A stretch of 35,868 nucleotides of DNA from an uncultured Caryophanales bacterium (GTDB lineage Bacteria; Bacillota_I; Bacilli_A; RF39; UBA660), in contig CAMKAT010000012.1 in the NCBI GenBank assembly GCA_946410555.1, positions 1 to 35,868 of the forward strand, read 5' to 3'. Shown here piece after piece: positions 25,183 to 35,817 of the stretch. The first letter of the stretch is position 1. Every line of letters begins with the position of its first letter. Position numbers and translations under genes: made by a program. The notes under the pieces are model-generated. The model saw only the letters and a list, made by a program, of their open reading frames with translations. It did no database searches and was not told the origin of the DNA.

Positions 25183-25208
25183 AAAAAAACTGGTTAATTA
25201 ACCAGTTT
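25183..25208 (-). terminator. Intrinsic terminator of the envelope operon
   Basis: Perfect inverted repeat with arms 25187-25195 and 25200-25208 (loop of 4 or fewer), T run on the minus strand at 25183-25189. Shares two bases with the TAA stop at 25207-25209. Confidence 0.8.
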
Positions 25209-28200
25209 AATTATTATATTGAATATAATTACAACGACTTTGAGATTCTTCACCATAGCAATCCCAATGTACTTTCTTACGAGCACTTGATAATGCAGAA
25301 TCACCTAATGGTTTAATATCTAATTTAAATTGTTTTGTTTTAAATTTAAGAACTCCATCTTTATAATAATTTTCAATAAAGTTACTATGATATTTCTTAA
25401 CTAATGGACTAGTTTCAGTATAAGAACCAGTATCAGGAGAAATATCGTTGTAATTATTTACATATGAATTATAATTCTTAATTTCATTTAAAGCTTTAGA
25501 ACTTAATTCAAATTCATAAGTAATTCTACTTGGATCATATAAAGTATCATTCTTACTTGTATCTTCGATTTCTTTTAAGGCTCCAGTACCTCTATTAGTA
25601 CCGAACCAGTTGTAAGCATATCTAACACTATTTCCATTAGAATCTTTTCCAACAGGAGCATTAGAAATATCATATTTGTCTTTACTATTTCTGCTTGTTC
25701 CAGGGAATAACTTAGTAGAATCAACAACCTTAAATGTATAAGTTAAAGAATCATCTACAGTTTTATCGCAGCTTCCACCTTCACAACATTTTTTAGACCA
25801 TTCGTTGTTGCTTCCATCTTCATTAGTAACTACTAAATCAGTAGGACAACCTTTAATCTTAACTAAGTCTGATTCAACTTTCATTGTACAGTAGAAGTTA
25901 ACTCCATCATTATTAGCTTCATTTGCACAAGTTTTACCGTTTTCAAAATAACTATCAAATTTACCATTTGAACCAATCGATAAATTCAACCACTTAGTTT
26001 GATATGTACCATAAATAGTAGAATGTTGAACATATTCACGACCATCGTATTTAGTATATGCCCATTTTAACGGATTAGATTCACTAAATTCAGTATATCC
26101 ACCATAAGGATAAACAGTATATTTACTATTATTATTAGGATATTTATAAATACAATCATATGTATATAAAGTATCTGAAGTATATTTTTGTTTATATAAT
26201 TGTCTATAAGGTTGAATAAATGGATTAACTTCTCTAACACAATCACCAACATATCTATTAGTAGAAACACATTTTAATTCAGTAAAGAAACTAAAGTTCT
26301 TAATTTGCGCATCAACTTTCTCGTTATGATTATATCTTGGAGAAATAACTCCACCTACACCACGATAATCACTTCCATATTCACCAGTAGCATTATAGTT
26401 ACATTCAGCTTTTAAATCAACAATATGATCATCACTATCAACAATGCTTTGGAAGTTAACATAAGCTACAAACCATTCAAATGAAATATCATTTTGAGTA
26501 ATTTTCTTTTTAATATATTCAGTAGTAGATCCTTTACCATTAATAAAGTAATTATCACATAACTCTAAATCAACTTTCATTTGATTCAATTGAGCCATAA
26601 GTGTACTATAAATGGATTTATATGTATTAGCAGTTGAATAATAACTATTCATAGTTCCATTATAAGAATTTTTAATATCAGGTAAAGAAGGTGGCGTAAA
26701 GTGTTGTCTTTGAGCTGAAGCATGACATGTAGCCTGATTATATTCTGGATAACCATTAGGATAATACTCACCAGTCCTATACCAAGTAGATGCTTCACAA
26801 CCAACACTACTTGGGAAATCATCAGCAGAAGGACTATCGCCAACCCAATCTAGTTCATATAAACCTCCGAAATTGCCAGAACTATTTTGAGAACCACCAT
26901 CAACAATTTCAAATCCACGGAATCTATCAACATAATCTACATTATTATCATAACTAATTTGTACAGTTTTATAAGAATAAACATGATAATTACTAGGAAT
27001 ATCCTTTTTATAACTATAAGTATAAGTCTTAGTTCTTGAATCACCACATGTTGCATATCCATGACCAGTATCACAACCTCCTGAATAAGAAACAGAAGCG
27101 TCCATAGTTCTTGTACCAGGATTATTAACTTCATCTAGTGTATCTTTATAAGCATAATAAGAATTTATACTATATTGATAACTATTGAAAGCATCTCTAG
27201 CTTGTTTAGTTAAATTTAAATATTTCTTTAACCATTTATTATAATAAATAATATTTCTACAAGACATATTACCATGAACATATGGTCCATAAGTATCTCC
27301 ACTTGGAGTACTACGAGAAGTTAATTGGAAATATTTACCATTACGTCCGTTAGAAGCTCCAGGCAAATCAACATATGCTCTTTCAGTACAATATGTTTGA
27401 CAATATTCATTAATATGTTCTGATTGATCGGTAGCGTAAGTACTAGATTTTCCATCAAATGCTTCAGGAACATTAATATTATTATCACGACTATCAACTT
27501 TTCCATCATCAGAAATTAAACATCCTTTTAAATCACAGAAAACTTCATTTAATGATGGTTCAGTTACACTTGAAGTAGTAGATTCAGAACAACAAAGATG
27601 TACATCTGGTTTAATTTCTGTACTAACATTACATTCATCAGTACATCCATTATTATCACAAACATCCTTTTTAACATTTCCAGGAATAGCTAATTTAAAT
27701 TGTGCATTATTAGCTCCAAGTTTTTTACTAGATGTACTTCCACCAGCATTAGGCATTGATAATGATTGTAATACATCTGTAGGAATGTAAGCTAAGAACT
27801 CTTGTTCAGTGTAATATAATTGTGCTCCAGATTGACTTGAAGGAATACATTTATATAAACCACCACTTGATGGTTGATAACTTACAACAAATTCAGGTTC
27901 ACATTTACCATTAGCATCTAAAGTAAATTGAATTGTACCTTCGCTAGCACCAGGTGCCCAATTAACAGTAACTCCACCATAACAGTTAGAAGTACAACTA
28001 AAGTTTGGTGCAACACTTAAAGGTGAACTAGAAGTTACCCTAGCAGTTACTTTAGCTCCAGCGCTTGTAATATAAGTAGCAGTAAATTTAACATTAGTTA
28101 AATCAATGCCAGGATTTACACTAGTTGATCCTCCGCCAGCATTAGAATTAACAATATTCATTGCTTGTTGTACATAAGATGATCCACCAACTTCTTTAAT

Positions 28201-28668
28201 TCTATTCCATCCTGATTGAGCTAAAGCACTCATACCATATTTACCTTTTGTTAAACCACTTTGAGCTGCTAAATAACGAACAGCTAAATCTCTAGATACT
28301 TGATTATATTTAACAGAATTCTCGTAAATATTAGAAATTGTTTGATTACTAATAGGATCACAACTCATATAGTGGTGTTTTAAATTAACACCAGGATCTA
28401 TACAAGTAACTTCAATCTTTTTTCCCCCAATAGAACCACTATATCTAATCGTAGGAATATAGTATTCATAATATTCAGAAGTAGAACCTACCTCTCTATT
28501 AAGACTAGCTTCTTTTTCAGGGTCTCCTTGACTTTTAGGTGTAGTATAATGGATATTCTTTGTTAGAGAAACTCCACCACCATCAATTTTAACTACAACA
28601 GTTCCAGCATTAACTTTAAATAAAGGAATAAAGCATAATACTAATAATATTCTTAAAATTCTCTTCAT
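25207..28668 (-). CDS. Large Cys-rich secreted protein, possible thioester-domain adhesin
   Basis: A 1153-residue extracellular protein with a signal peptide at 1-21 (ends KVNA-G). The mature protein has roughly 33 cysteines, many in pairs or CxxxxC spacing (CDNNGCTDEC, CCEGGSC), and is rich in Tyr, Ser and Asn. The N-terminal region has VTCIDPG (Cys89) and LAAQSG (Gln136), which resembles the Cys-Gln arrangement of thioester (TED) adhesin domains; this is only a suggestion. No LPxTG signal, membrane anchor or known repeat is visible at the C-terminus, which ends in a Cys-containing strand. The start overlaps the upstream membrane protein by ATGA, and the gene is last in an operon with a pilin-like and a bitopic membrane protein, so it is probably held at the surface by them. 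Confidence 0.7.
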   Translation of the reverse strand: MKRILRILLVLCFIPLFKVNAGTVVVKIDGGGVSLTKNIHYTTPKSQGDPEKEASLNREVGSTSEYYEYYIPTIRYSGSIGGKKIEVTCIDPGVNLKHHYMSCDPISNQTISNIYENSVKYNQVSRDLAVRYLAAQSGLTKGKYGMSALAQSGWNRIKEVGGSSYVQQAMNIVNSNAGGGSTSVNPGIDLTNVKFTATYITSAGAKVTARVTSSSPLSVAPNFSCTSNCYGGVTVNWAPGASEGTIQFTLDANGKCEPEFVVSYQPSSGGLYKCIPSSQSGAQLYYTEQEFLAYIPTDVLQSLSMPNAGGSTSSKKLGANNAQFKLAIPGNVKKDVCDNNGCTDECNVSTEIKPDVHLCCSESTTSSVTEPSLNEVFCDLKGCLISDDGKVDSRDNNINVPEAFDGKSSTYATDQSEHINEYCQTYCTERAYVDLPGASNGRNGKYFQLTSRSTPSGDTYGPYVHGNMSCRNIIYYNKWLKKYLNLTKQARDAFNSYQYSINSYYAYKDTLDEVNNPGTRTMDASVSYSGGCDTGHGYATCGDSRTKTYTYSYKKDIPSNYHVYSYKTVQISYDNNVDYVDRFRGFEIVDGGSQNSSGNFGGLYELDWVGDSPSADDFPSSVGCEASTWYRTGEYYPNGYPEYNQATCHASAQRQHFTPPSLPDIKNSYNGTMNSYYSTANTYKSIYSTLMAQLNQMKVDLELCDNYFINGKGSTTEYIKKKITQNDISFEWFVAYVNFQSIVDSDDHIVDLKAECNYNATGEYGSDYRGVGGVISPRYNHNEKVDAQIKNFSFFTELKCVSTNRYVGDCVREVNPFIQPYRQLYKQKYTSDTLYTYDCIYKYPNNNSKYTVYPYGGYTEFSESNPLKWAYTKYDGREYVQHSTIYGTYQTKWLNLSIGSNGKFDSYFENGKTCANEANNDGVNFYCTMKVESDLVKIKGCPTDLVVTNEDGSNNEWSKKCCEGGSCDKTVDDSLTYTFKVVDSTKLFPGTSRNSKDKYDISNAPVGKDSNGNSVRYAYNWFGTNRGTGALKEIEDTSKNDTLYDPSRITYEFELSSKALNEIKNYNSYVNNYNDISPDTGSYTETSPLVKKYHSNFIENYYKDGVLKFKTKQFKLDIKPLGDSALSSARKKVHWDCYGEESQSRCNYIQYNN

Positions 28669-29498: not shown

Positions 29499-29957
29499 TT
29501 ACCATTTTCCTTCACTTTTTAATTTATCCACATCAGCATTTCTATATTCACCAGTTGTATAAAGTGCACCAGCAATTCTGTTTGTAACTTGTTTAGCACC
29601 ATCATTATTTGTAAATAGAAGGTTACTACCATCACCATAAGCAGTTACAGAAACAACAGCATAAGGAGGGTCCTCATAAATATCATAAAAAGTTACTTTA
29701 TAATGTTTATTAATATTAACTTGTTCACCAAATCTTCTTAAGAAGTTTTCAGTAAATTTTTCACCATTCATTCTAATTACATTATTATCAGAATAATATC
29801 CGAAATCTACAGAATCATACATAGCAGCTTCCATAGAGTTTTTAATTAAATAATAATCTTGTTCACTAGTAGTTGTTAAGTTTTGCATAAGAACCATTAC
29901 AGACATAATAGAAATACCTAAAACTACTATCCAATAACCCCAAACACTCTCTTTCAT
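29499..29957 (-). CDS. Pilin-like small membrane-anchored protein
   Basis: A 152-residue protein: one N-terminal helix (WGYWIVVLGISIMSVMVLMQ) directly after a short MKESV leader, then a helix and a beta-rich C-terminal domain. This is the shape of TadE-like or pseudopilin proteins. It lacks the Glu at position 5 of a processed type IV prepilin, so cleavage by the prepilin peptidase nearby is doubtful. I think it resembles a DUF5411-type family, but cannot confirm. First gene of the envelope operon; AAGGTGATAG ribosome site; promoter at 29991. Confidence 0.65.
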   Translation of the reverse strand: MKESVWGYWIVVLGISIMSVMVLMQNLTTTSEQDYYLIKNSMEAAMYDSVDFGYYSDNNVIRMNGEKFTENFLRRFGEQVNINKHYKVTFYDIYEDPPYAVVSVTAYGDGSNLLFTNNDGAKQVTNRIAGALYTTGEYRNADVDKLKSEGKW

Positions 29958-30024: not shown

Positions 30025-30714
30025 TTAGAACTCAGCATCCTTAATTTTTTTATAAGATAAATAAATATAAATAATATCAATAATAATTCCTAAACCTAAT
30101 CCTATAAGTATATAAACTCTATATTGTTTATAAAGATCTAATATTGTAACTAAGTTACTTTTCTCACCACTATCATCAACACTTTTCATAGTAGTAGTTT
30201 TATTAAATTCAGCTCTAATATTTTTAATAATAGTATCTTCATCTACTTTAAAATCACTACTAATCCATTCTTTACAATAATAGTAATCTTTCATTTTCTC
30301 ATACTTACATTCATCCATAGAAACATAAAAAGGATTCTTTTTAGGTTTAACTAAAGTAAATGATCTAACCTTTGAAATACAACCTTCACTACCATTAACA
30401 TATATATCAAATTGATATTTAAAAGTAGTATCTAAATTATAATCTTTAAATGAAGGATCAACTCCATCTAAATTAACTAAAGATTGTATTTTTCCACTTT
30501 CATCTGTGTATGATAAAAAAGTACTTTCATCAATATTATAGGCAGTAATTAAAAAATAATTAACTCCATTTTCATCTGTCTTAAATTCATAAGATGCCGT
30601 AATTTTAGTAGCATTCGTAGAAAGATTAACTTTCTCTTTAGCACTACACTCTAAAGCATATGTGGAACTAATAAAAGAAAAACAAATTAATATTAAAAAT
30701 AATACTTTTTTCAT
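30025..30714 (-). CDS. Exported membrane-anchored protein with Cys domain
   Basis: A 229-residue protein with a signal peptide at 1-20 (ends TYA-L), an extracellular domain, and a C-terminal membrane helix at about 199-220 followed by KKIKDAEF. The extracellular domain contains DIYVNGSEGC, then VRSFTLVKPKKNPF, then two cysteines, matching the pattern in the 275-residue protein at 28665-29492. Function unknown. Monocistronic with a -35/-10 promoter immediately downstream of the ncRNA terminator. It lies just upstream of the pilin-like operon and probably belongs to the same surface system. Confidence 0.7.
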   Translation of the reverse strand: MKKVLFLILICFSFISSTYALECSAKEKVNLSTNATKITASYEFKTDENGVNYFLITAYNIDESTFLSYTDESGKIQSLVNLDGVDPSFKDYNLDTTFKYQFDIYVNGSEGCISKVRSFTLVKPKKNPFYVSMDECKYEKMKDYYYCKEWISSDFKVDEDTIIKNIRAEFNKTTTMKSVDDSGEKSNLVTILDLYKQYRVYILIGLGLGIIIDIIYIYLSYKKIKDAEF

Positions 30715-30785: not shown

Positions 30786-30819
30786 AAACAAAAAACATAT
30801 TGCTGACAACAATATGTTT
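30786..30819 (-). terminator. Intrinsic terminator of the ncRNA
   Basis: Stem 30793-30802 with 30810-30819 (aaacatattg/caatatgttt, loop of 7), followed on the minus strand by TTTTTTGTTTG. No protein gene ends nearby, so it must end a non-coding transcript. Confidence 0.8.
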
Positions 30820-31189
30820 CGAGTTTTTAAGATAAACTATTAATCTAAGAATGTCAGTTCCTGATTAACAATTCCATATCCCTTAAAATTGAGTTTCTTT
30901 CTCATGTGCACACATACTTAGTATCAAGATATGACCTTCACGGCATCAACACAATACCAAAGTCGCTCCAATATTGTCTTCAACAATACGAGCAACTAAC
31001 TAGGTTATTCATGTATGTATTTTTTATACATATTATATAACTACCCGTTATTAATATGTTTATATACATTACATATTTGATCAAGTAATTTTAAATTATA
31101 TTTTTTCAGTTTACTTGTTTGGATAAGTAACCGATTATAATTTTTAAATTACCTTTTATTTTTTAAACCTAGTATATTGCTTACTAAGT
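30786..31189 (-). ncRNA. Probable structured non-coding RNA of about 400 nt, family not identified
   Basis: This is the only stretch over 300 bases without a gene. It is bounded by the best promoter in the window (TTGACA-17-TATATT at 31196-31224) and by an intrinsic terminator at 30786-30819. The 3' half is less A/T-rich than other intergenic DNA and carries strong helices: gtcgctc+atattgt (30962-30968, 30971-30977) pairing with acaatac+gagcaac (30983-30996); tatgtat/atacata (31014-31020/31026-31032); cttaaaa/ttttaag (30882-30888/30825-30831) enclosing gattaa/ttaatc (30863-30868/30840-30845). No open frame with a ribosome site is convincing. I find no signature of tmRNA, RNase P RNA, SRP RNA, T-box or the riboswitch classes I know. 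The 5' end is estimated from the promoter; the A/T-rich first 150 bases may be a leader. Confidence 0.6.
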
Positions 31190-31195
31190 AATTAT

Positions 31196-31224
31196 AATAT
31201 ACAACCTCACTTATTTAATGTCAA
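31196..31224 (-). promoter_or_regulatory. Strong promoter of the ncRNA
   Basis: Minus strand TTGACA (31219-31224), exactly 17 bp, TATATT (31196-31201). This is the only perfect -35 hexamer I noticed at proper spacing in the window. Confidence 0.72.
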
Positions 31225-31246: not shown

Positions 31247-31921
31247 TTATTTTTTTCTTAAATTTGTTTGTGTATATTTATTGCACATAATTACGTACTC
31301 TTCTAAAATTTTTGAATCTTTAGAAAATAAATTTTTATCAAAAACTTTATCGTTCATTTTAAAATCTTGAAGAAAATATCTTGATGGTGAAACTAATTTT
31401 GCAATACTAATTAAATCATCCAACTCATGAATATTAAAAACTGTAGTTCTAAACTCATGTTCAATTCTAGAATTCTTAATTAATTCAACAGATAATAAAA
31501 TATCATCAATATTATTATTTGTATTAGTAACCATTTTATATTTCAAAGGATCATTTTTAATGTCCATAGCTATATAATCTACTAAAGAGTTTTGAATTAA
31601 ATATTCAATCATCTTAGGATTAGTACCATTAGTATCAAGTTTAACCAAGAAACCTAAATCTTTTATTTTTTTAATAAATTCCGGTAAATCATTATTAATT
31701 GTAGGTTCACCACCAGTAATAACTACTCCATCAATTTTACCTATCCTAGATTTTAAAAACTCAAATAATTCTTCTTCACTTATTCTTCCATTACTTTTAA
31801 CTTTTAAGTCAGAATTATAACAGTAACTACAATTCATGTTACATCCAGATAAAAATATAATCGAAGACACTTTCCCAGGATAATCAAGTAAACTTAATTT
31901 ATTTAAATCATAAATATTCAT
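31247..31921 (-). CDS. nrdG: Anaerobic ribonucleotide reductase activating protein-like radical SAM enzyme
   Basis: A 224-residue radical SAM activase of the NrdG2 (PflA-related) type, which puts a glycyl radical on a partner enzyme using SAM and a 4Fe-4S cluster. The N-terminal LSLLDYPGKVSSIIFLSGC is characteristic of this subfamily. The cluster motif is CNMNCSYC (Cys27, Cys31, Cys34), followed by VVITGGEPT and LDTNGTNP. No nrdD or other glycyl-radical enzyme lies in the window. The ATG overlaps the stop of the DUF2207-like gene by one base (TAATG), so it is co-transcribed with the pilus-type genes. No convincing terminator: after the stop there is only an A7/T7 hairpin. Confidence 0.85.
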   Translation of the reverse strand: MNIYDLNKLSLLDYPGKVSSIIFLSGCNMNCSYCYNSDLKVKSNGRISEEELFEFLKSRIGKIDGVVITGGEPTINNDLPEFIKKIKDLGFLVKLDTNGTNPKMIEYLIQNSLVDYIAMDIKNDPLKYKMVTNTNNNIDDILLSVELIKNSRIEHEFRTTVFNIHELDDLISIAKLVSPSRYFLQDFKMNDKVFDKNLFSKDSKILEEYVIMCNKYTQTNLRKK

Positions 31922-33585
31922 TATATTTTACTCTTTCTTTTATAAACTATAATATTAGATCCACTTTGCATTAAATTACCACTCATCTCATCATAGTTAT
32001 AAATTTCATTATTCTTAACTGTTTGTCTATAAGCAGCAAGAGATAAACTATAAACTTTTTCATATATATAATTAACTGATTGGAAATCTAATAATTTCTT
32101 TGCATAAATATTATTAGGATTCTTTCTTAATATTTCTTCTGCAACTTGTTTACCTATTCCAAGCATTTGAGCACATAAAAGTAATAACTTATAAGTATCT
32201 TCACTAAGTCTTGTTTGTCTTGGAACTTGATTAAAGTTAAGTAAATATTTCTTCATAGAAATAATCTTATTACCATAATCTACAAATTGTTCATTAAATA
32301 TAAGTCTAGAAGTTTTACCTATCTTAGCACCACGAGTTACATGGCCTCTATTAAGTTCATCTGTAATAGTTTCACTATAACCCATGTTATACCAAGTCAT
32401 AATTCTAACAAAATGTCTTTTAGCAAATCTATTAAACTTAGTATCACTAATAACTTTCATATCAGATGCTTCAAGCATAATATTATATAAGTCTTGATCT
32501 AAGTCTCTATCAATACCTTCATCATTCTTAAGTCTTATATTGCGACCATTCTTACCAGGAATAAGTTCAAGATTATCATTTAAATACATTTTAAATAGAA
32601 TAGTACCTAAGAAATCACTCTTATTCTTTAATAATTTAAAATAACCAGCAGTAAAGAATATCTTATATAAATCTCCTTGGCAAGGAACTGAATCATAATA
32701 AGATAAGTCTTTAGCTTTAGCTACAGTCATTTTATCTTTTATTTCCATAGCATAATATTCATCATGAGTTCCATATCTAATATAAACAAATGAAACGACA
32801 AGTATAATAAATCCTAATGCGATAACTGTAATAAATCCAATTAAGAAAGACTTTGATGAATAAGAATAAAATAAAGCTAAAAAGTCTCTACCATTAATAA
32901 CGTCATCACTATATTCATCATAGTTTTTGTCTATCTTCTTATAATTAGAAAACTCTACATCTGGAGTAAATAATATTAACATTCTTAAACTTTGAGTAGA
33001 ATCAATGTTACTAAAATTAAAATTAATATTACTACTAGAAATCACAGGGTTACTCTTACCTAATCCGACTAAATCAACTTTAGCAACTTTAGATAAAAAA
33101 GATTCGTTTTCAAAAGAAATATTAGCACTAAAACTACCAACATAATTTTCTGCTACTCTAGAAAGTAAATACCAATCTATTCCATATGTACCATCTTTAT
33201 ATTTAACAACAACATTAGATATTTTATATTTAATAGTTATAGTTACATCTTCACTTACAACACTATACCAAAGAAGTTTCTTATATCCTTGATCATCAAA
33301 TGAATAAAAAAATGCTTTATTATCCTCTAGATATTTAGCATACTCATATTTAGTACCTAAGTTATCACTAATACTAATATCACTAATTTTTGCATCTTTA
33401 ACATTAAAGAAAACAAGATTATAAACAGTATCTCTTTGTCCTAAATAACTTAAAACTTGAGTAACTTCACAAGAACCATCATTCTTTATAACTCCGTTAA
33501 TATTAGATGAAGAAACTTGAATCGCAGATACGGAAGGTATAAAGAAAAAGAATAAAAATAATAAAATTATTATTTTCTTTTTCAT
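31921..33585 (-). CDS. DUF2207-like membrane protein
   Basis: A 554-residue protein. Signal peptide at 1-21 (ends VSA-I). The extracellular part of about 220 residues begins with VSSSNINGVIKNDGSCEVTQVLSY and contains the YKISNVVVKYKDGTYGIDWYLL segment typical of DUF2207 domains. One membrane helix lies at about 249-272 (FLIGFITVIALGFIILVVSFVYI), followed by a 280-residue cytoplasmic region with helical and winged-helix-like stretches. Family function is unknown. The start overlaps the prepilin peptidase gene by 4 bases (ATGA) and has GGAGGAAT in front. Confidence 0.8.
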   Translation of the reverse strand: MKKKIIILLFLFFFFIPSVSAIQVSSSNINGVIKNDGSCEVTQVLSYLGQRDTVYNLVFFNVKDAKISDISISDNLGTKYEYAKYLEDNKAFFYSFDDQGYKKLLWYSVVSEDVTITIKYKISNVVVKYKDGTYGIDWYLLSRVAENYVGSFSANISFENESFLSKVAKVDLVGLGKSNPVISSSNINFNFSNIDSTQSLRMLILFTPDVEFSNYKKIDKNYDEYSDDVINGRDFLALFYSYSSKSFLIGFITVIALGFIILVVSFVYIRYGTHDEYYAMEIKDKMTVAKAKDLSYYDSVPCQGDLYKIFFTAGYFKLLKNKSDFLGTILFKMYLNDNLELIPGKNGRNIRLKNDEGIDRDLDQDLYNIMLEASDMKVISDTKFNRFAKRHFVRIMTWYNMGYSETITDELNRGHVTRGAKIGKTSRLIFNEQFVDYGNKIISMKKYLLNFNQVPRQTRLSEDTYKLLLLCAQMLGIGKQVAEEILRKNPNNIYAKKLLDFQSVNYIYEKVYSLSLAAYRQTVKNNEIYNYDEMSGNLMQSGSNIIVYKRKSKI

Positions 33586-34358
33586 AGTATTCCTCCATAT
33601 AGTTTAGTAATTAAATCATAAAAGAAATCACTAAAGTGAAAGATTATATAAAATGCACTGATTAAAAATGGACCAAAAGGTAAAATATTACTTTTGTTCT
33701 TAAAACTTACATAAAGTGCATAAGGAAGAGCTAAAAAGGCACCCATAAAAATATATAAAACACCTAATTTAACACCTAAAACAATACCTACAAAGAAAGA
33801 AAGCTTAATATCTCCCCATCCTAGTGATTCTTGTTTAAATGTTACATCTCCGAATACTTTAATTAGAAGCATTAAAGAGAACAATAAAAGTCCATGTAAA
33901 TATTTATAAGCAACTGCAATCATTCCATATTTAATAACAAAACAAATTGTAGTAAATACTATACCCACTATTAAAACCTCATCTAAAATAATCATATATT
34001 TAGCATCACTAATAATAACGCAAATAAATACAGATGAAATAATAATAGAAATAATAGTATCTATACTAAATCCATATATTAAAAAACTACCCATAAATAA
34101 TAATCCAGTAATTATTTCAGTTAATGGATACCAAAAAGATAGTTTTATCTTACATTTAGAACATTTTCCACCTTGAAAAAGATAAGAAAAAACTGGTATT
34201 AATTCATACCAGGTTAATTCATGTTTACAATTATCACAATGGGAACCTGGATGAATTATTGATTGGTTATTGCTTAATCTATCACATAAACAATTAAAAA
34301 ATGATCCAAAAAACAATCCAACAATAAACAAATATATACTAATCATCCATTGTTCCAT
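33582..34358 (-). CDS. Type IV prepilin peptidase / A24 aspartic peptidase
   Basis: A 258-residue membrane peptidase that cleaves and N-methylates type IV prepilins. The N-terminal domain has two CxxC pairs (Cys41, Cys44; Cys66, Cys69), as in bifunctional PilD/GspO/ComC. Catalytic aspartates are visible in SDAKYMIILDE (Asp118) and GWGDIKL (Asp183). About eight membrane helices. The start is taken as the ATG at 34356-34358, behind AAAGGATT; the frame is open 13 codons further into the upstream gene without a ribosome site. Placed 13 bases after the GspF/PilC-like gene. Confidence 0.92.
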   Translation of the reverse strand: MEQWMISIYLFIVGLFFGSFFNCLCDRLSNNQSIIHPGSHCDNCKHELTWYELIPVFSYLFQGGKCSKCKIKLSFWYPLTEIITGLLFMGSFLIYGFSIDTIISIIISSVFICVIISDAKYMIILDEVLIVGIVFTTICFVIKYGMIAVAYKYLHGLLLFSLMLLIKVFGDVTFKQESLGWGDIKLSFFVGIVLGVKLGVLYIFMGAFLALPYALYVSFKNKSNILPFGPFLISAFYIIFHFSDFFYDLITKLYGGIL

Positions 34359-34371
34359 ATAATAATCCTTT

Positions 34372-35784
34372 CTACATAAGTTCACTATATAAGCCAAACA
34401 TTGGCATTATAATAGAGATAATAATTCCTCCTACTACAACAGCTAAGAAAAGAATAAGAACAGGTTCAATTAAACTTTTCATTGTATCAACTAATGTTTT
34501 ATGTTGAGTATCAAAATAATCAGCAACTTTTTCCATCATCTCAGCAAGTTGTCCAGTAGATTCACCAGTTTGCATCATGTAATATGCAACCTCTGGAATA
34601 GCCCAATTATTTTTGAACGCTTCACTTATTTTATCACCACGACCAATATAGTTAACAGTATTAATCATGATTTGTTTATATATTTCATTATTTGTAATCT
34701 TAACTAAGATATCCATAGACTCTGTAATAAATACGTTGTTCTTCAAAAGATTTGCAAACGTACGAGTAAATATAGTTATTTCTTTATAAATAATCATATT
34801 ACCAAATACAGGTAGTTTCATTGCAAATGTTTGCATGTAGAACCTTATTGCTTTAACCTTCTTATAAAGAAGTACAATAACAATTATTACAAGGATAATA
34901 CCTAAGATAATTGATAAAATATATGCTTTCAAGAATTTAGAAGCTGCAATAATAAATGCAGTTAATGGACTAACTTTAGCTCCAGCAGTTGCATAGATAT
35001 TTTCAAATTGAGGAACTAAGTATATCAAGATGAATGCTACAACACCAAATGCAAATAACAAAATAAGAATTGGATATGTTAAAGCACTCTTCATTTCTTT
35101 TCTAGTCTTTTCAACATTACTATAATATGCAGCCATATCATCTAGAGTACCTTCAAGGTCTCCAGTTGCTTCAGCTGTCTTAATCATGTTTATAAGTAAC
35201 GCAGGGAAAATATTACTTTGGTTCTCCAAACATGTAGAGAAATTTTCACCCAAAGTTAAGTCATAAACAATTCTATCGAAAATACGTTTAAGATTATCAC
35301 TTTTACCCATTTGTTTACTAAGGATTTCCATAGCTTGCGTTAAAGGAATACCAGCTTTTAAGTAAGTTGATAATTGTTCAAGCCAGAATACTAAATCTTT
35401 AGTACTCATTTTTTTATTTAAGAATCCGTTAGCACCATAGAATCTATCAATTGATGAACTAGTTTCAATTTTAAATACTTTATATCCTTCATTTTCAAAG
35501 AAAGTAAATACTTCCATTTTAGAATATGCTACGAAAGTATTCTTTACAAGTTTACCATCAGGATTTAAAGCAGTATATCTATAAGTAACTTGATGATCTG
35601 CTCTTGGGTTTTGGTTACTATTAATTTCATTGATTAGTTTTTCTCTATCTGCAAGTAATGCAGGACTAATCTTAGTTTGTTTTTGAGTAACACCTAAAAC
35701 TTTATTACTTTCCTCTTTAGGATTAACAACTTTAGCATCTTTAACTTCAGTTTTTGTATTTGCAGGCTTTTTATCTTCGTTCAT
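34372..35784 (-). CDS. Type II secretion/type IV pilus inner-membrane platform protein (GspF/PilC family)
   Basis: A 470-residue platform protein that couples the assembly ATPase to pilin insertion. Residues 1-50 are a charged disordered extension (NEDKKPANTKTEVKD). TYRYTALNPDGKLVK starts the usual N-terminal region, followed by two repeated T2SSF helical domains: FWLEQLSTYLKAGIPLTQAM near 140 and ITIFTRTFANLLKNNVFIT near 345. Each is followed by a membrane segment, and a C-terminal helix ends the protein. The ATG at 35782-35784 follows AGAGGTG at 6 bases. First gene of this operon in the window; the ATPase (PilB/GspE) and pilins would be expected to the right. Confidence 0.92.
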   Translation of the reverse strand: MNEDKKPANTKTEVKDAKVVNPKEESNKVLGVTQKQTKISPALLADREKLINEINSNQNPRADHQVTYRYTALNPDGKLVKNTFVAYSKMEVFTFFENEGYKVFKIETSSSIDRFYGANGFLNKKMSTKDLVFWLEQLSTYLKAGIPLTQAMEILSKQMGKSDNLKRIFDRIVYDLTLGENFSTCLENQSNIFPALLINMIKTAEATGDLEGTLDDMAAYYSNVEKTRKEMKSALTYPILILLFAFGVVAFILIYLVPQFENIYATAGAKVSPLTAFIIAASKFLKAYILSIILGIILVIIVIVLLYKKVKAIRFYMQTFAMKLPVFGNMIIYKEITIFTRTFANLLKNNVFITESMDILVKITNNEIYKQIMINTVNYIGRGDKISEAFKNNWAIPEVAYYMMQTGESTGQLAEMMEKVADYFDTQHKTLVDTMKSLIEPVLILFLAVVVGGIIISIIMPMFGLYSELM

Positions 35785-35817
35785 CACAATCACCTCTATT
35801 TATTCTTTTACTATTTT

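Follow-up and report, generated by a model that had tools for sequence, protein, structure and literature searches.

A gene for a folded, non-protein-coding RNA of about 400 nt that appears to be a divergent member of the PGK RNA family (RF03040)

The minus strand of the 35.9-kb stretch of DNA analysed here (the window, at its full length) carries a real gene for a folded, non-coding RNA of about 400 nt, and comparison with its homologs indicates that this RNA is a divergent member of the known but uncharacterised PGK RNA family. What appears to be new is the full architecture, consisting of an own promoter, a 5′ end predicted to pair with the core, and a predicted pairing between the loop of the P4 hairpin and the loop of the terminator. 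The reading that we prefer, and to which we assign a probability of roughly 0.65, is that the locus encodes, as a gene standing by itself, a compact non-coding RNA of this family that acts in trans. The plan of such a gene, with P1 at the start site, the core helices and the complementarity of the terminator loop, is shown by comparing the loci.

Results

The locus and its transcription unit

The initial annotation of the window described a structured RNA with a promoter and a terminator of its own, and the fold, the homologs and both signals bear this out (Table 1). The ends of the RNA are inferred ones, the start being placed 5-8 nt past the −10 box and the end at the U-tract of the terminator. 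Its fold is more stable than those of dinucleotide shuffles (z −5.7, 0/100), a comparable excess is seen in the relatives G002 and G003 (z −4.85 and −5.65), and the RNA strand of the locus has no ORF of at least 50 aa. The promoter had been called the strongest in the window. It is present as described with an 11/12 match, and it ties with two other 11/12 sites, among which it is the sole one to combine a perfect −35 with 17-nt spacing. When promoters were chosen blindly at about 65 homologous loci, the one picked had this same placement with respect to the RNA in 55 of them. Judging by its promoter, the window RNA may be highly abundant. The terminator that had been placed about 400 bases further on, and assigned to no protein gene, is likewise there, its stem being followed by a U-tract; a simple terminator scan missed this stem because the rule of the scan demands at least three G-C pairs.

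Table 1. Features of the RNA locus and of the folded RNA, in window coordinates
Feature	Position	Strand	Remarks
Sigma-A type promoter TTGACA-17-TATATT	31196..31224	(-)	11/12 match
RNA gene, inferred transcript of ~400 nt	30789..31190	(-)	Fold z; homologs via models R1, R2, R3
Upstream neighbour, radical SAM protein	31247..31921	(-)	Stops before promoter
Downstream neighbour, secreted/membrane protein	30025..30714	(-)	No Pfam family
P1 5′ strand UACUUAGUA, at inferred 5′ end	31182..31190	(-)	Complementary to 30915-30923
P1 3′ strand UACUAAGUA	30915..30923	(-)	Pairs with 31182-31190
5′-domain hairpin ACUU-AUCCAAAC-AAGU	31113..31128	(-)	
Hairpin AUAAC-GGGUA-GUUAU	31037..31051	(-)	Window and G002 only
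14-bp stem with 2-nt bulge	30962..30996	(-)	Window and G002 only
P1b 5′ strand CAUAUC, PGK core outer helix	30928..30933	(-)	Pairs with 30875-30880
P1b 3′ strand GAUAUG	30875..30880	(-)	Pairs with 30928-30933
P2 hairpin AUGU-GUGC-ACAU	30904..30915	(-)	3/4 pairs changed on both sides
P3 hairpin GAG-AAAGAAA-CUC	30891..30903	(-)	Aligned to PGK/R3 consensus
P4 hairpin, loop CUGACA at 30852-30857	30834..30874	(-)	11/12 model pairs changed on both sides
P5 terminator hairpin AACAUAUUG-UUGUCAG-CAAUAUGUU	30794..30818	(-)	9/9 stem pairs changed on both sides

The RNA had been located between pilus-type and envelope genes. This is right for the upstream side, where the radical SAM gene is part of a pilus-type cluster, and inexact for the downstream side, where the neighbour encodes a secreted/membrane protein of no known family. 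A candidate promoter of that downstream gene (TTGAGT-17-TATACT with an extended −10) is not better than those of shuffles (p = 0.2). The pilus-type cluster in the window includes genes for T2SS F (34372-35793), a prepilin peptidase (33582-34397) and a DUF5411 protein (29499-29957), and inside it lies the gene of a secreted protein of 1153 aa that belongs to no Pfam family (25207-28668).

Identification of homologs

A DNA search of relatives returned the syntenic locus of G002 (86%) as the only full-length match, together with a 56-nt match at an unrelated place in G003; other short matches were mostly chance. The radical SAM gene was useful as a synteny anchor for G002 only, because the G003 RNA sits elsewhere. 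A pattern drawn from the most conserved block added G290 and G131 as true members, each with compensatory changes, and two other pattern matches (L056 and L057), both inside coding sequence, were discarded. The exact core pattern had no match in viral contigs and found only the two known relatives in genome contigs.

Model R1 was built from these five loci (the window, G002, G003, G290 and G131), none of which matches RF03040, and its search yielded homologs in 37/386 genomes of the bacterial family, tandem pairs and triplets included. The rows for R1 and R2 were hand-segmented and N-padded because plain MAFFT misplaced P4 in the 3′ domains. In the R2 rows the bulge and some loop bases were also trimmed, so that the counts obtained with R2 lean towards the structure. 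Model R3 was made from 20 sequences, none of them from the genus of the window and 16 of them matches of the PGK model (14 above threshold), and was aligned without hand-segmentation or trimming.

Relation to PGK RNA

The RNA had been presented as unidentified, with a cmscan against Rfam proposed as the check. The window sequence indeed goes unmatched: an Rfam search of the window, at gathering threshold and up to E 10, gave no relevant match, PGK included, and the PGK model gave no match in the window's own genome, the window copy not rising above the 50.8-bit gathering threshold. The homologs, however, match RF03040, a known class, and together with the genus-excluded model they place the RNA there. 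The homolog G217:C57, found with R1, scores 58.1 bits with the Rfam PGK model and is thus above the threshold. A cmscan of other homologs gave several PGK matches of 34-42 bits, and every one of these matches, like that of G217:C57, coincides exactly with the 3′ domain. When the bacterial family was searched directly with the PGK model, 30/291 genomes were above threshold, with scores of up to 98 bits, and two paralogs from the genus of the window scored 32-34 bits.

Applied to the window, R3 recovers the RNA at 47.2 bits (E = 1.2e-5) as the sole significant match, the next-best having an E-value of 0.68 in an unfiltered scan. Since no sequence from the window's genus went into R3, this match argues that the window RNA is a divergent PGK-family RNA. 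R3 also matches all members that were tested from the window's genus and from a second clade, the weakest at E 0.016. The window RNA has the core helices of PGK RNA, namely P1b, the GAG/CUC hairpin with its AAAG loop, and P4 with a loop of the CUGAUA type.

In Rfam, PGK RNA is a 92-nt entry of type 'Cis-reg', and its name presumably derives from a position upstream of the phosphoglycerate kinase gene (pgk). It occurs in the same bacterial family, and its P1b, GAG-AAAGAAA-CUC hairpin and P4 hairpin align with the window RNA. The Rfam model lacks the promoter, P1, the variable 5′ domain, P2, and the terminator hairpin whose loop is predicted to pair with P4. The full unit described here differs in being about 400 nt long, and the window copy differs further in that it escapes the Rfam model and does not lie beside pgk.

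The earlier statement that the RNA is not tmRNA, RNase P RNA or 6S RNA is sustained, as the first two and a candidate for the third are found elsewhere in the same genome. In the window there is no covariance-model match to tmRNA (RF00023; no ARAGORN match either), RNase P RNA (RF00011) or 6S RNA (RF00013), whereas the genome has its tmRNA at C7 (133 bits), its RNase P RNA at C2 (271 bits) and a 6S candidate at C39 of G000 (37 bits, E 3e-6, below the gathering cut-off). The window RNA resembles 6S RNA in being a stand-alone structured RNA with paired ends. Neither the window nor the cmscanned homologs gave a covariance-model match to raiA/ModT (RF03072); nine genomes tested for raiA had no match, and the control genomes likewise gave none.

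Conserved structure of the RNA

Alignment with related genomes had been recommended as a check of the RNA, and it reveals conserved blocks, compensatory changes and a preserved paired structure. In the five-sequence structure 99% of the cells are paired and 26/39 pairs have changed on both sides, while slid versions are 35-45% paired. With 13 sequences, 28/40 pairs have changed on both sides and 94% of the cells are paired, compared with 35-49% for slid versions and 0/500 shuffles; these rows were hand-segmented and slightly trimmed, and the counts lean towards the structure. In the same 13 sequences P1b is paired in 100% of the cells, with changes on both sides in 4/6 pairs, and P3 is the most conserved element of the PGK core.

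Two RNA-defining features were missing from the initial annotation, the pairing of the 5′ end with the core (P1) and the pairing of the P4 loop with the terminator loop. P1 was evaluated at 55 loci with promoters picked without reference to pairing. A pairing of at least 7 bp between the stretch past the −10 box and the core was found in 45/55 loci, compared with 11-12% for shuffled or random stretches, and P1 starts 3-7 nt past the −10 box in 50/55 loci. When 3′ strands were exchanged between loci the pairing was still reached in 40%, because the strands themselves are conserved. The occurrence of P1 right after the −10 box suggests that the 5′ end of the RNA is close to the start site and paired.

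In the window, the segment UGUCAG of the P5 loop (30803-30808) is complementary to the P4 loop CUGACA. With automatically chosen loops, P4 and the terminator are complementary over at least 6 nt in 47/65 loci, compared with 1.5% for shuffled loops and 0.1% for loops swapped between classes. The classes of loop pairs, CUGACA:UGUCAG, CUGUCA:UGACAG and CUGAUA:UAUCAG, are related by compensatory changes; CUGUCA:UGACAG is seen in G131, and one G134 copy has UGACUG:CAGUCA. In most of the other loci a match is visible by eye that the automatic selection of loops had overlooked; it is truly absent, among the 65 loci, from L127, L131 and L132. These three loci sit a few kb from an L10 leader or ribosomal-protein genes. 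The 22 canonical PGK copies that were read with their flanks follow the same plan as the window: a sigma-A promoter precedes a short 5′ strand, after which come a variable domain, the core and the terminator. The loops of P4 (CUGAUA) and of the terminator (UAUCAG) are complementary in these copies. In the second clade a pseudoknot between the P3 loop and J5 is suggested by pairings that reach 6 bp in 6/15 loci, compared with 8% in shuffles.

The 5′ domain is more variable. The 14-bp stem with its 2-base bulge is exactly as first described; it is kept in G002 and absent from more distant relatives in the alignment, and is thus a feature at the level of the genus. The aagtaa copies reported in direct orientation at 31083, 31125 and 31186 and inverted at 31111 are present, and as repeats they are nothing special, since the hexamer occurs 97 times in the window in both orientations. 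One of them is the 5′ strand of P1, and the pair at 31125 and 31111 makes up a single hairpin (31113-31128), whose UCCAAAC loop is kept in most of the window-type relatives, in two genera. The UAUCC of this loop and the GGGUA loop of the hairpin at 31037-31051 could, by their complementarity, form a second loop-loop contact within the 5′ domain. Related genomes have instead a conserved 11-nt loop, GACGGGAUGUU, on a stem that varies. At L110 (G351:C8) the roughly 330 bases upstream of the match at 1205-1350 (−) contain near-repeats of a segment with CCGAGTAGAAGTTTTATTTGGAAA, and this 5′ domain looks as if a 5′-domain module had been multiplied.

Distribution, paralogs and tandem copies

Class-wide samples gave no match outside one bacterial family, and the best reading is that the PGK-family RNA is restricted to one family of gut and rumen Bacilli. 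With the models used, significant matches occur in about 37 of the roughly 150 genera of that family, and the RNA may be absent from many of them. A deep search of 14 genomes from two genera found it in all 14, weakly in G001. Two or three copies are carried by 8/11 genomes of the window's genus (G008 included), and in the paralog pairs that could be read one copy has CUGACA/UGUCAG and the other CUGAUA/UAUCAG, each matched within itself, with diverged 5′ domains. The window copy belongs to the CUGACA/UGUCAG class, and a second copy was not found in the window's genome G000 (93.7% complete). Two or three full units in tandem, each with its own promoter and terminator, lie at L122:6090-7143 (G134), L109:5226-5749 (G363) and L101:6060-6648 (G008). 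A genome of the window's genus also carries OLE RNA (RF01071, 206 bits, L101:1792-2294, G008:C75), on the same strand as two tandem PGK-family RNAs and about 3.8 kb upstream of them.

Discussion

Our results suggest that the 'Cis-reg' label deserves to be revisited. Among the loci read, pgk lies downstream of the RNA only in the genus g81, and there it has its own 12/12 promoter (TTGACA-17-TATAAT) past the RNA terminator, so the description of PGK RNA as a cis-regulator of pgk is probably wrong. A broader role as a leader or attenuator, in which the contact between the P4 and terminator loops, or a ligand that disrupts it, sets read-through into whichever gene follows, is unlikely in our view, even though it has the Rfam type and the pgk genus on its side and a loop that grips the terminator would be a natural place for control. 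A terminator stands between the RNA and a co-directional gene in 46/51 loci (upstream genes are co-directional in 32/42), and at many loci, including that of the window, the downstream gene has a promoter no better than those of shuffles, so that local effects in cis may occur in some species. Yet the downstream genes are unrelated between genera: they include murG, a PPIC foldase, HU, SpoIVA, a sulfatase, RNase J, S12, an ABC ATPase, a FabG-like reductase, peptidase U32, acpS and alanine racemase, among others, and in five loci of two contexts (spoIVA and acpS) the downstream gene is convergent. The terminator appears strong and is conserved by covariation, no conserved anti-terminator is apparent, and the whole unit is repeated in tandem (G008, G363 and G134). 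We found no conserved protein partner near the RNA, neighbours being common only within a genus or between close genera. In some genera of this small-genome family the sporulation genes SpoIVA and CotJB adjoin the RNA (L189, L132).

The same loop pairing could instead join molecules. OLE, ROOL and GOLLD are elaborate bacterial RNAs with covarying intermolecular kissing loops (PMC12286853), and a homo-oligomeric scaffold of that kind, in which the paralog classes would form separate assemblies, is consistent with loop pairs that covary and are matched within each paralog; OLE RNA is itself present in a sister genome. The window RNA is shorter than those RNAs and has no Rfam match to them. An intramolecular contact is the simplest reading of the pairing, since P4 and P5 lie next to each other with a linker between them. 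Covariation cannot separate intra- from intermolecular pairing, and the structure resolved for the raiA motif, which is likewise a structured RNA, is that of a monomer (PMC12286853). We regard the scaffold as improbable. Its fullest version, which we hold to be quite improbable, is that the P4-terminator pairing is intermolecular and homotypic, that each cell has two PGK-family RNAs with distinct loop codes (CUGACA/UGUCAG and CUGAUA/UAUCAG) forming two separate RNA-only complexes, and that the cis label is wrong everywhere; if this were true, the two homotypic complexes would be a new class of natural RNA assembly beside OLE, ROOL and GOLLD. It is most improbable that the RNA is a base-pairing, antisense-type sRNA whose exposed loops UCCAAAC and AAAGAAA target mRNAs. 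These loops are conserved within the window's relatives and the paralogs have diverged 5′ domains, but the UCCAAAC loop is confined to two genera, and conservation lies mostly in the helices and their tertiary contacts, unlike in typical sRNAs.

For the stand-alone gene of a trans-acting RNA that we favor, comparison shows a sigma-A promoter position of its own and first nucleotides that pair with the PGK core as P1, around the variable 5′ domain; past the core helices P1b, P2, P3 and P4 comes an intrinsic terminator, and its loop complements that of P4. Compensatory changes preserve these pairings, and the neighbouring genes differ between genera. P1 and the contact between the P4 and terminator loops may hold both ends of the RNA in one closed fold, which could protect it from exonucleases and make it long-lived. 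The A-rich, conserved P3 loop and the loops of the 5′ domain might present a surface to which a partner, protein or RNA, binds. Such an RNA would act in trans, in a housekeeping or growth-phase role in the manner of raiA/ModT or 6S RNA, and would not switch the next gene. The raiA/ModT transcript of Bacillota is a sigma-A driven, abundant, trans-acting, pseudoknotted and stand-alone RNA (PMC11706538). Its likeness to the window RNA is one of working only, as there is no match in sequence or structure. The two paralogs with different self-matching loop pairs may be two specialised versions of the RNA.

PGK RNA is one of many computer-listed bacterial motifs that are known by a short consensus and presumed to regulate in cis. 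It can now be redefined as an apparently complete RNA gene that has inferred ends, a loop predicted to contact its own terminator and covarying with it, and matched paralogs within a genome. In this form the RNA is directly testable, since it is clear where to clone, which loops to swap, and which genes are not expected to be its targets. The case also indicates that an entire RNA gene can go unnoticed behind a truncated Rfam model.
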